Source of the DNA: Candidatus Altimarinota bacterium
Lineage (GTDB): Bacteria > Patescibacteriota > Gracilibacteria > GCA-2401425 > JAJOLG01
Reading direction: 5' to 3'
Length of the DNA stretch: 9,650 bases
Assembly (NCBI GenBank): GCA_021129445.1
Contig: JAJOLG010000006.1
Coordinates: 1-9,650, forward strand
Below the pieces are notes generated by a model that saw nothing but the letters and a program-made list of their open reading frames with translations, had not been told where the DNA came from and did not search any database. Position numbers and translations under genes: made by a program. This document shows, in pieces, positions 1,411 through 8,861 of the stretch. How positions within the stretch are numbered: the stretch's first letter is position 1; every line of letters starts with the position of its first letter.

Positions 1411-2617
1411 CGAAAATACAATGTCGGTTCACATAAAAACTTGAGCAAAAATTTTTGCAAAAAAATGAATGCCTTGAAATGTGGAATTTACAGCTATTTC
1501 AAAAACTGATACGACTGAAACTGAGGCTGATAGAATAGTTGATGAAATTATAACTTATTGAGAAAATTTTTGATATTTTGATCAGAAGAAAGATTGAGTT
1601 GTAGTTTTACAAATTGACCATTACAGGATCACAATTACGACTTTTCCACTTTCGGAAGCAACAGAAATCACAATTGTAAAACCGGTAAAAAGACTTTGAG
1701 TTGATGATTATTGAATTGATGAAAAATTAAAGGAGAGATTTTTGGAGAGTGCTGAGTGAATTTTAGTTGCATGAGCACCTTGATCGTGAAAATCCACTTT
1801 TATTCAAGCCTTGGTAGATTTTTATGATAAAAATTGAAAAATTATTAAAACTTTGGAATCGCCAAGAGATTTACAAGTTCCGCATAATGTGACACAATAT
1901 TCAATGAAACACGCAGAACATGATACAATTCGTGATATTTTGCTTTTAAGTCGTCCAGATTATGTATTTTTTGATGAAATTCGTAATCACAAAGATTTTT
2001 GATTTTATTCAGATTTAAGACTTTCGTGAATTTGAATGGTGTGAATTGTTCATGCGACAAAGCCGATTGACGCAATTCAAAGATTTGTTTGAAAATTGGA
2101 TTTATGAATGATTCCATCTGTGATTGATACGGTTGTTTTTATTCAAAATTGATGAATTGAAAAAATTTTAACTTTGAAATATGAAATGAAAGCACCGATT
2201 TGAATGGAGGAAAGAGACTTGGTCAGACCTGTGATTTCAATTTCTGATTTTGAAACCTGAAGGGAAGAGTATGAAATTTATACATTTTGAGAAGAGACAG
2301 TTGTAATGCCAATTCCTGAAGAATATGCACAAAATAAAGAAGAACAAGAAAAAATAAATAAAATTTTCGCAAAAGAATGTGAAGAATATTTTAAAGAAAA
2401 TTGATTTTTAACAGAAGTTGTTGCAAAATCTACAAAAAAAATTCAAGTAAAAATTTTAGAGTGAGAAAAAAATTTTAAATTGTGAAAAAAATTTTGAAAA
2501 AAGTGAAAAAAATGATGAAAAATTTTTGGTGATAAATGAGCTTTTATTTGAAAAAAATGAGTAAATATTCAGAGATTTGAGGAGGTTTTAAGGACTGGGA
2601 TTGATGTAATTGAATAA
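1385..2617 (+). CDS. PINA-type (VirB11-like) ATPase with C-terminal KH domain, lacking the N-terminal PIN domain
   Basis: The 410-residue product has a P-loop G-A-P-G-S-G-K-S-T at 130-138, then L-E-S-P-R-D-L-Q-V at 157-165, R-P-D-Y-V-F-F-D-E-I-R at 190-200 (Walker B region) and V-H-A-T at 222-225, followed by P-I-D-A-I-Q-R-F. These blocks match, as I recall them, the archaeal ATPases with PIN, VirB11-like and KH domains (PINA family). The C terminus holds a short KH-like segment with G-K-K-G at 389-392 as the GXXG nucleic-acid loop, preceded by a Lys/Gly-rich tract at about 360-386. Archaeal members begin with a PIN nuclease-like domain of over 100 residues; here about 45 unrelated-looking residues lead straight into the ATPase's own N-terminal region. 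The archaeal relative is reported to act on Holliday junctions. The ATG lies inside ruvB, in another frame, suggesting translational coupling. The family call is firm; a role in junction processing is inference. Confidence 0.85.
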
Positions 2618-2633
2618 AATTAAAAATTTTAGA

Positions 2634-3428
2634 ATGATAAAACTATTAAAACTATTTCAAGGTTTTACAGATTTTCTGCTTATTATTTCAGCATTTTTCC
2701 TTGCATATTTTTTCCGTCTTTCAATTTTTTTACTCGCAGAGTGAAAATGAATAATTCATTCTGATTACCCGATAAATTCTTTTATTGTAATTTCTGCATT
2801 TTCTGCATTTTTTACTGTTTTTTATTTTTATTTAAATTGAAGATATTCAAATAATAAAATTTATAAAAATTTACAATCTTCTATTTACTGAGCAGGTTCT
2901 GCCATTGCCGTATTTATAATTTTATATTTTTTTTCTCGTCAAATCTTTTTTTCAAGATTAATTCCAATTTATGCATTTTGAATAATTTTTATTTTTAATT
3001 ATTTTTCTTACTTGTGATTTAAAAAAATTTTTCAAAATAAAAAAATTCAAGAAAAATTTTGAAGAAAAATTTTGATTATTTGAGCAAATAAAACTGCTGA
3101 AAAAGTCATTGAAGCATTAAAAAATGATGGAGGAGTGAGAAATATTGTTTGAATTTTAGATTCTTATTGAACTTCAAAAAAAGAAATTTTATGAGTGCCG
3201 GTTTTGTGAAAATTAAATATTTTTGAAAAAGTAATTAAAGATAAGCAAATTGAAGAAATTGTGCAATGTGATAATTTTGAACACACTTTAAATATTTCGG
3301 TTTTTTGCAAAAATAATTGATTAATTTTTAAACAATCGCAGGATTATCATTGATTATGAAATATTAAAACTGAATTTTATCAATCAGAAAATTGATTAAA
3401 TTTTTTTGGGTTTGATTGAAAAAAATAA
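2634..3428 (+). CDS. Membrane protein matching the N-terminal half of a polyprenyl glycosylphosphotransferase (no transferase domain)
   Basis: The 264-residue protein has four predicted membrane helices (about 14-35, 48-67, 87-100 and 109-127) and then a cytosolic Rossmann-like domain. That domain starts K-I-L-I-I-G-A-N at 145-152 and contains V-G-I-L-D-S, G-V-P-V-L-G and I-E-E-I-V. The order of four helices followed by a CoA-binding-like nucleotide-binding fold is that of WcaJ/WbaP-type initiating enzymes, which load the first sugar phosphate onto a lipid carrier for surface polysaccharide. Those proteins are usually about 450-480 residues and carry the catalytic bacterial sugar transferase domain at the end. 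Here a TAA and then a terminator follow directly, so that domain is absent from this locus. It may be a regulatory or partner subunit, a truncated remnant, or a related sensor. It begins 16 bases after the PINA-type gene. Confidence 0.75.
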
Positions 3429-3499: not shown

Positions 3500-4021
3500 A
3501 TGAAAAAAATCCATAATATTGCTTTTGTAGATTGACAAAATCTCCATTTATGAACTCAATCTGAGTGATGGATTATTGATTTTAAAAAATTTTATATTCA
3601 TTTAAAAGATAAATATAAAATTAAATTCGCAAATTTTTACATTTGACATTATGTTTCTGAAAATGATTTTTTGTATGAAAAAATAAAAAATGCATGATTT
3701 AATTTGATTTTTAGGGATCATAATGAAAATCAGAAATGAACAAAAAAATGAAATGTTGATGTAGATATTGTTTTTGATGTTATGGAAAAAATTATTAAAA
3801 AAAAGGAATTTGATAAAATAATTTTAGTTTCTTGAGATTGAGATTATTTTAGAATTGTAAATTTTTTAATAAAGAACGGTTTATTTTGAAAAATTTTATT
3901 TCCAAATACAAAAAGATCGTCTTTGTATAAAAAAATAACAAGACATTTTTGAACATATTTAAATGAAAAATGAATTAAAGAAAAAATTTGAATAAATAAA
4001 AAATGAAGAGGGCTGGCCTAA
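3500..4021 (+). CDS. NYN-domain putative ribonuclease (LabA/DUF88 type), copy 1
   Basis: The 173-residue product is a single NYN domain, a PIN-like metal-dependent RNase fold. Acidic active-site positions expected for the family are visible: D11 in F-V-D-G-Q-N-L, D87 and D89 in G-N-V-D-V-D-I-V, and D113 and D115 in S-G-D-G-D-Y. All the strand-helix elements of the domain appear present. The ATG at 3500 follows an AAAATAAAAATTTTTTTAA leader and a terminator, so the gene is probably transcribed on its own or leads into pyrH. Its last codons and TAA (4019-4021) lie inside a stem-loop element also found at the end of the paralogue at 8296-8784. RNase activity is expected from the family, but the substrate is unknown; the adjoining RNA element is a candidate. 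Confidence 0.9.
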
Positions 4022-4097
4022 AGCACTCACGCTTTTCGGGTTCCTCTTCGTGGTGAACAGAAAAATTTTATTTATTTTAAAAAAAAAGTCAAATAAA
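4000..4097 (+). other. Structured element at the 3' end of NYN copy 1 (element copy A)
   Basis: An outer stem GAAGAGG (4005-4011) pairs with CCTCTTC (4043-4049). Inside it AAAGC (4020-4024) pairs with GCTTT (4031-4035) around an ACTCAC loop. The inner stem can be extended by CC/GG (4017-4018 with 4038-4039) across a small internal loop. The NYN stop codon falls at the foot of the inner stem. No T run follows the outer stem, so this is not a standard terminator. A 15-bp motif (4083-4097, containing GTCAAATAAA) lies 38 bases further on and is repeated exactly, at nearly the same distance, in copy B. I infer an RNA-level function such as a processing site, self-target or small RNA; the function is unknown. 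Confidence 0.65.
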
Positions 4098-8295: not shown

Positions 8296-8784
8296 ATGGT
8301 AAAAAATATTGCTTTTATTGATGGACAAAATTTAATTAAATCATTACCTTGGAATATTGATTATAAAAGATTTAAGATTTATTTAAAAGATAAATATAAA
8401 ATTGATGAAGTTTATTATTTTTTATGATTTGTTGATTGACAAAATAAACTTTATGAAAATTTACAAAAAGCATGATTTATTCTCATTTTTAATTCAAAAT
8501 GAGAAAATTTAAAATCAAATAAAAAATGAAATATTGATGTTAATTTGGTTTTCGAGGCGATGAAAAGATATGCAGAAGGTGGTTTTGATAAATTTTTACT
8601 AGTTTCTTGAGATTGAGATTTTTTTAATATGGTGGATTTTTTTATAGAAAAAGACAAATTTATTAAAATTTTATTTCCAAATAGGAAAAATTATTCTTCA
8701 CTTTATAATTCAATTTGAAATAAGTACTTTTCTTTTATCAACTGATTAAAAGATAGATTACAATACAAAAAAAAGAGTGGCTAA
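8296..8784 (+). CDS. NYN-domain putative ribonuclease (LabA/DUF88 type), copy 2
   Basis: The 162-residue paralogue of the gene at 3500 shares N-I-A-F-[VI]-D-G-Q-N-L, L-K-D-K-Y-K-I, K-K-G-N-[VI]-D-V, L-V-S-G-D-G-D and I-L-F-P-N. The predicted acidic site is D9, D81, D106 and D108. The position equivalent to D89 of copy 1 is N83 (I-D-V-N-L-V), so metal binding may differ. It is one of the few genes here with some GGN glycines near its start (GGA in D-G-Q-N). The end, K-K-K-S-G then TAA, lies in a structured element homologous to the one ending copy 1. It probably has the same kind of role on a different RNA, or is a specialised duplicate. Confidence 0.9.
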
Positions 8785-8861
8785 AGCACTAACACTTTTC
8801 GCACCTCTTTTCGTTAGAATACAATAAAATTCTAATAAAAAAAAATAAAAAGTCAAATAAA
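8765..8861 (+). other. Structured element at the 3' end of NYN copy 2 (element copy B)
   Basis: An outer stem AAAAGAG (8771-8777) pairs with CTCTTTT (8805-8811). An inner AAAG (8783-8786) pairs with CTTT (8795-8798) around a CACTAACA loop. The NYN TAA is at 8782-8784, the same place as in copy A. The core CTAAAGCACTAACACTTTTC differs from copy A at only two bases in the aligned stretch. In the outer stem, the G-C pair 4005/4049 of copy A is an A-T pair here (8772/8810), which keeps pairing. A further hairpin, TTAGAAT (8814-8820) with ATTCTAA (8829-8835), follows and is specific to this copy. The 15-bp motif 8847-8861 then repeats exactly. Confidence 0.65.

Follow-up and report, generated by a model that had tools for sequence, protein, structure and literature searches.

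Both nuclease genes of the NYN family in a 9,650-nucleotide stretch of Candidatus Altimarinota DNA (referred to here as the window) finish inside the same kind of hairpin, which raises the question of what this hairpin is, from which strand it is made and how it is related to the nuclease. The source genome of the window comprises 673 kb and is 94.8% complete, and the window was best read with TGA as glycine (code 25). The two genes and their ends are as follows:

3500..4021, plus strand: NYN nuclease gene 1, 173 aa in code 25; Pfam NYN (PF01936), 3e-17; catalytic Asp conserved
4019-4021, plus strand: stop codon TAA of NYN gene 1, inside small-RNA gene 1 (see below)
8296..8784, plus strand: NYN nuclease gene 2, 162 aa; Pfam NYN, 1.3e-13
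8782-8784, plus strand: stop codon TAA of NYN gene 2, inside small-RNA gene 2

Both window proteins carry an NYN domain with a conserved acidic active site, as is characteristic of the NYN/LabA-like family, and among 108 NYN proteins compared the catalytic Asp positions were 97-100% conserved. The nearest solved structure was 2QIP (VPA0982), a LabA-like/DUF88 protein, and the Pfam and PDB sequence matches together settle the predicted fold. The PADLOC profiles for NYN and for HEC-09, a candidate defence family, also matched (HEC-09 in 14 of 20 proteins, E down to 4e-8); the latter match, to what is itself only a candidate defence system, may be taken as a weak hint. No ToxN-like match was obtained in the Pfam, PADLOC or PDB comparisons. 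Elsewhere in the window, directly after ruvB, there is a secretion-type ATPase (T2SSE, 1385-2617) with a lysine-rich C-terminal region and, judged by eye, a possible KH-like segment.

A first-pass annotation, made from the letters of the window, had described the ends of both NYN genes as lying in a nested hairpin with the stop codon at the same place, and this description was borne out: the stop codon TAA begins a shared core, TAAAGCACTNACNCTTTTCG (plus strand), at both gene ends. The 20-nt core was indeed special to these two sites, as no other site in the 673-kb genome carried it at up to two mismatches. The outer stems differ by changes that preserve pairing (GAAGAGG/CCTCTTC vs AAAAGAG/CTCTTTT), again as described. 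A 15-bp motif, AAAAGTCAAATAAA, is repeated about 40 bp downstream of both NYN ends; what the annotation had overlooked is its identity, since it is the -35 region of a promoter that reads into the element on the minus strand. On this strand we identified the following features:

3999..4058, minus strand: small RNA 1, about 60 nt, 5' end near 4058; covariance model (CM) R1, 54.8 bits, E 1e-10
Parts of small RNA 1, minus strand, from fold and covariation: leader GUUCACCAC; stem 4049-4043/4011-4005; inner stems; U-tail 4003-3998
4065..4092, minus strand: promoter of small RNA 1, TTGACT (4092-4087), 16 bp, TAAAAT (4070-4065); includes a portion of the 15-bp motif
8762..8821, minus strand: small RNA 2, about 60 nt, 5' end near 8821; CM R1, 64.3 bits, E 3.5e-13
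Parts of small RNA 2, minus strand, from fold and covariation: leader GUAUUCUAAC; stem 8811-8805/8777-8771; inner stems; U8 tail 8774-8767
8829..8856, minus strand: promoter of small RNA 2, TTGACT (8856-8851), 16 bp, TAGAAT (8834-8829)

Both RNAs are members of the training set of CM R1, and their high R1 scores are therefore expected; the model found exactly two copies in the genome, which are the two in the window. Both promoters are sigma-70-like, with 10 of 12 consensus matches each. The leader starts about 7 bases after the -10 box and is followed by a hairpin with two internal loops and then by the U-tail, and in relatives the promoter occupies the same position relative to the small RNA. 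On the plus strand no T-run was found at the element. The plus-strand regions folded better than their shuffles (z -3.4 and -4.0; both beat 200 of 200 shuffles), whereas the folds of the RNA strand were less marked (z about -2.1), so that within the window the case for the minus strand is carried by the promoter and the T-run, its weight being provided by the comparison with relatives. A simple terminator scan called no terminator in either window RNA; it requires an uninterrupted stem, which the internal loops probably do not allow. An integron attC-like or REP-like DNA element had also been considered and was dropped once promoter and T-run were found on one strand. We conclude that the ends of both NYN genes overlap separate predicted small-RNA genes on the opposite strand, each with its own promoter and intrinsic terminator.

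To follow the element beyond the window, NYN homologues were collected and found in 28 of 60 genomes of the same class. The strong matches, mostly from standard-code genomes, all showed a convergent promoter, hairpin and T-run when inspected by eye. The first-pass annotation had proposed a covariance-model search for the element beside NYN genes elsewhere, and homologues were found: with the named and viral loci as the test set and the remaining gene ends at these loci as controls, a detector of promoter, hairpin and T-run responded at 71 of 87 NYN ends vs 25 of 319 control ends (Fisher p 9e-42), at least one control match (in L067) being itself another such RNA. When the detector, closer reading and the covariance models were combined, about 76 of 80 named relatives had NYN together with the RNA, the loci lacking it being L103, L106, L110 (cut by the contig end) and L133. 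The RNA was also present at all 30 class NYN loci retrieved by protein profile alone. No RNA-model match was obtained at the more distant NYN loci L028, L029, L031 and L032, and the RNA thus appears to be restricted to one NYN subfamily.

Within the class, R1 matched in 72 of 288 genomes and 52 of 174 genera, and NYN adjoins most of these matches; phylum-wide, R3 matched in 57 of 379 genomes and R1 in 17 of 379. The named relatives come from many Patescibacterial lineages, Saccharibacteria, Clostridia, WOR-3, Nitrospirae, Omnitrophota and Chloroflexi. Since contigs of metagenome-assembled genomes may be mis-binned, we single out as the strongest cases outside Patescibacteria a WOR-3 chromosome (CP070802, L097), a 472-kb Nitrospirae contig (L108), in which NYN carries two internal stops, and the isolate Emticicia sp. 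BO119 (L109). The pair also occurs on seven contigs of a viral collection (L145-L151). In a set of phage genomes from GenBank no relative was found of the one NYN protein searched, and the plasmid matches were distant NYN proteins. Two related NYN genes on one contig could in principle have resembled each other by chance, or by a duplication after which both copies retained a similar terminator. The occurrence of the same RNA in 52 of the 174 class genera, mostly beside NYN, and beside NYN in other phyla, with covariation, has already refuted this explanation, to which we give practically no weight.

The RNA and the protein also have a common history. On the NYN protein tree the RNA subtype switches 3 times (minimum 2), compared with 49.7 times after shuffling, and since physical linkage alone could make the subtype track the tree, this result speaks for co-inheritance and not for contact. 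These comparisons establish, at the level of sequence, the existence, strand, structure, tight linkage and co-inheritance of the predicted module of NYN and RNA. Some genomes hold several copies: one class genome (G097) has six NYN matches of the RNA-linked subfamily, several with type D RNAs, and a Falkowbacteria locus (L067) has a subtype B and a subtype A RNA on one strand about 1 kb apart (1982-2040 and 2999-3057), which suggests two NYN modules in tandem.

Covariation, which the first-pass annotation had proposed to look for, was positive in three independent alignments, one for each of the RNA subtypes A, B and D. Type A, the subtype of the window, consists of a stem followed by a CC-GAAC-GG-loop-CC-UAA-GG core; in 9 of its 12 pairs both partners had changed, paired cells made up 93.5% and the inner four pairs covaried by themselves. 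Pairs changed on both sides numbered 8 of 11 in type D and 5 of 14 in type B. In all three alignments the covariation score was reached by 0 of 500 shuffles; the structures were drawn by eye from the aligned sequences, so that controls with a slid structure somewhat favour them, and the shuffle controls agree. The 5' leader, AUCACSAY, is unpaired and in type D hardly varies between phyla. A small encoded peptide seems unlikely, as an AUG is present in type D RNAs and absent from type A. No family of Rfam 15 matched the element (window and 21 loci scanned). The annotation had named coincidence with an ordinary terminator as an argument against its proposal, and this was half right: the outer stem is a terminator stem, but the terminator belongs to a separate small-RNA gene, and the inner stems covary although a terminator does not need them.

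We then compared the gene order of the loci. In the great majority the order is convergent, and the RNA gene overlaps NYN at its stop codon. Four loci are arranged differently. L080 and L261 have the RNA and its terminator immediately upstream of NYN in the same orientation, and a second TATAAT precedes the nuclease gene; L085 has the RNA downstream of NYN, likewise co-oriented and with its own promoter TTGACA-17-TAATCT; in L246 the two genes are divergent. At none of these four is the RNA antisense to the NYN 3' end. No preferential pairing of the RNA with the start of its own NYN gene was found in 69 loci (-14.28 vs -14.28 kcal/mol when swapped; mean rank 0.53). The non-convergent loci, together with the lack of a pairing preference, argue against cis-antisense control and equally against a self-target on the sense strand.

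The first-pass annotation had assigned the element to the sense strand, and this assignment did not survive, the promoter, the T-run and the conserved 5' leader all being on the minus strand. Regnase-1 is an NYN/PIN-like RNase with stem-loop RNA targets, and a similar self-target in the NYN mRNA, or a plain NYN terminator, could be imagined from the overlap with the stop codon and from the folding of the plus strand. Unlike the 3'-UTR element of that comparison, the stem-loop here is an independent RNA gene on the opposite strand, with a conserved promoter and a U-tail there and no T-run on the plus strand; moreover, it lies upstream of NYN at L080 and L261 and is divergent at L246, hence outside the NYN 3' end. 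We regard a sense-strand element as very improbable. The same promoter, U-tail and leader on the opposite strand, and the separate promoter at L085, also speak against the suggestion of a small RNA released from the NYN mRNA. What stood of the original interpretation is a structured RNA that is conserved, covaries and is linked to NYN genes; a guide- or antitoxin-like RNA had been among its options.

Could the RNA act on the NYN gene itself? It might base-pair with the NYN mRNA at its 3' end, or transcription of NYN might run into its promoter, and the nuclease would be kept low by type I-like control or by transcriptional interference. The convergent overlap with the stop codon, seen at the vast majority of the loci, is in line with this, and since RNA and NYN 3' end are antisense to each other there, some cis effect may exist at those loci. 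Against it stand the upstream, downstream-tandem and divergent RNAs at L080, L261, L085 and L246 and the lack of preference for the own NYN start region; in addition, the conserved internal loops, the leader and the covariation of the inner stems would be superfluous for an RNA of full complementarity. The toxins of type I systems are as a rule short peptides, mostly hydrophobic, whereas NYN is a nuclease of about 160-175 aa with a conserved catalytic Asp. Control of this kind is in our view distinctly unlikely. A comparable known arrangement is that of Bacillus type I systems such as yonT/SR6, where an antisense antitoxin RNA overlaps the 3' end of the toxin gene (PMC5848175), as the small RNA does with the nuclease gene here; the NYN loci differ in that the protein is a nuclease with a conserved active site, RNA structure and leader are kept across phyla, and arrangements without overlap occur.

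A further indication came from loci in which one partner was missing. Neighbours of the class RNAs were counted with code 25, since those genomes read TGA as glycine; an intact NYN was found for 55 of 67 RNA matches, a partial one for 5 and none for 7, and two NYN genes scored as interrupted in this count contain, within the match, no stop other than the terminal one. In the phylum-wide sets about 12 of 40 RNAs were without an intact NYN neighbour. Promoter, hairpin and T-run were kept by 14 of 19 orphan RNAs, one orphan (L266) probably being a false positive. The cognate NYN was wholly absent from several genomes with orphan RNAs and located elsewhere in the genome in others. RNAs without intact NYN thus numbered about 24 of 107, vs 4 NYN genes without RNA out of 110 (p 3e-5), an asymmetry which is suggestive only, as its two sides were ascertained by different searches. 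It would match a toxin and its antidote, where the antidote may outlive the toxin and not the reverse. Orphan RNAs might also be remnants that decay slowly, or they might serve another function. In one orphan locus (L255, G439, 1300-1500), a highly conserved RNA has, by eye, a RAYT/Y1-transposase-like ORF and an inverted repeat at the place expected for NYN; in another (L237, G386, 1582-3060), the RNA is followed by RelB/RelE-like, AbrB-like and PIN-like ORFs, which by eye form a toxin-antitoxin gene cluster.

Taken with the conserved active site, the asymmetry is best fitted by an RNA antitoxin that acts on the nuclease protein, and the tandem RNA copies at L082, L149 and L170 and the weak HEC-09 match point the same way. 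We therefore consider it rather probable, though well short of certain, that the locus is a two-gene module of an NYN/PIN-like ribonuclease and a dedicated RNA antitoxin of about 60 nt, with a logic like that of type III systems. The small RNA would be strongly transcribed from its own sigma-70-type promoter, ended by the intrinsic terminator and labile; it would fold into the specific internal-loop hairpin, bind the NYN nuclease and block or occupy its active site. If transcription of the small RNA stopped, on phage takeover, under stress or on loss of the locus, the RNA would be lost and the freed nuclease would cleave RNA.

The RNA could instead be a cofactor of the nuclease, a ribonucleoprotein in which the single-stranded leader AUCACSAY would provide specificity or recruit the target. 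The unpaired leader, nearly invariant across phyla, the near-universal association of RNA and NYN and the intact active site are all compatible with this, but there is no variable guide segment, so any target would have to be near-universal; RNAs with intact promoter and structure persist in genomes without a cognate NYN, and the rarity of NYN without RNA suits a toxin better than an enzyme merely deprived of its cofactor. We consider a cofactor role unlikely, if still a live alternative. Its bolder form, a compact, single-protein, RNA-programmed NYN effector whose 5' leader would recognise a near-universal cellular or phage RNA, seems to us rather less likely again; if true, it would be a new kind of RNA-directed nuclease across Patescibacteria and other phyla.

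Another NYN protein with a small-RNA partner is known from a type III CRISPR locus of B. fragilis; its Mn2+-dependent cleavage of single-stranded RNA has been demonstrated, and it has been proposed to trim crRNA intermediates (PMC11346440). The resemblance lies in the NYN-domain ribonuclease and the small RNA, whose joint action is a prediction in our case, and no CRISPR genes were noticed at the NYN loci as read, without systematic annotation. By analogy, NYN might be a maturase trimming a small regulatory RNA with trans targets of its own. The 5' end of the RNA is already set by the promoter and the 3' end by the terminator, and orphan RNAs occur without the supposed maturase, which makes this role improbable.

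The antitoxin reading invites comparison with the type III systems ToxIN, CptIN and TenpIN (reviewed in PMC5086642). As in these systems, an endoribonuclease adjoins a structured noncoding RNA ended by an intrinsic terminator; at L080 and L261 the RNA is even upstream, with the terminator between RNA and NYN, while most other loci are convergent. Tandem RNA units are found occasionally (two units at, for example, L082, L149 and L170), nearly all other loci having a single unit of about 60 nt. The differences are that the nuclease is NYN/PIN-like and not a ToxN, CptN or TenpN toxin, that the RNA is a single unit with no evidence of repeat processing and not a tandem repeat array, and that it has its own promoter in a mostly convergent order; toxicity and binding are here predicted. 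As both the ToxN fold and the repeat array are absent, we do not class the NYN module as a member of type III. AvcID, a type III system, has a deoxycytidylate deaminase as toxin and an sRNA antitoxin, AvcI, of about 280 nt, which decays when transcription stops and so releases the enzyme (PMC10511110). Here too a dedicated sRNA has as its partner an enzyme that does not belong to the ToxN family, its inhibition being established for AvcID and presumed for NYN. Unlike NYN, the AvcID toxin is a deaminase, and no terminator is predicted between avcI and avcD.

None of the sources searched mentions an RNA partner for proteins of the same sequence family, LabA-like/DUF88 NYN, or for PADLOC NYN and HEC-09; HEC-09 itself came up once in the full texts searched. 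Similarly, no paper linking an NYN nuclease with such a partner small RNA was found in the full-text literature searched, from which subscription papers and preprints are mostly absent, and the novelty of the pair is provisional. If the antitoxin reading is true, the pair would represent a large, apparently undescribed family of RNA-controlled nucleases, mostly in uncultured bacteria, with an RNA family missing from Rfam, and the idea of small enzymes held by a dedicated antitoxin RNA, as in ToxIN and AvcID, would extend to the NYN/PIN-like fold. The gene-order variants and the cultured host Emticicia sp. BO119 would then be a natural set for testing the mechanism.

Finally, several RNAs depart from the usual form. 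In L117 the internal-loop strands CCUAAGG/CCGAAGG have changed places compared with type A (CCGAACGG/CCUAAGG), and L104 and L143 look similar; the swapped loop resembles the UAA/GAN internal-loop motif of rRNA. At three NYN loci (L087, L088, L118) the RNA hairpin is far shorter, about 38 nt, and is perhaps minimal or decaying.
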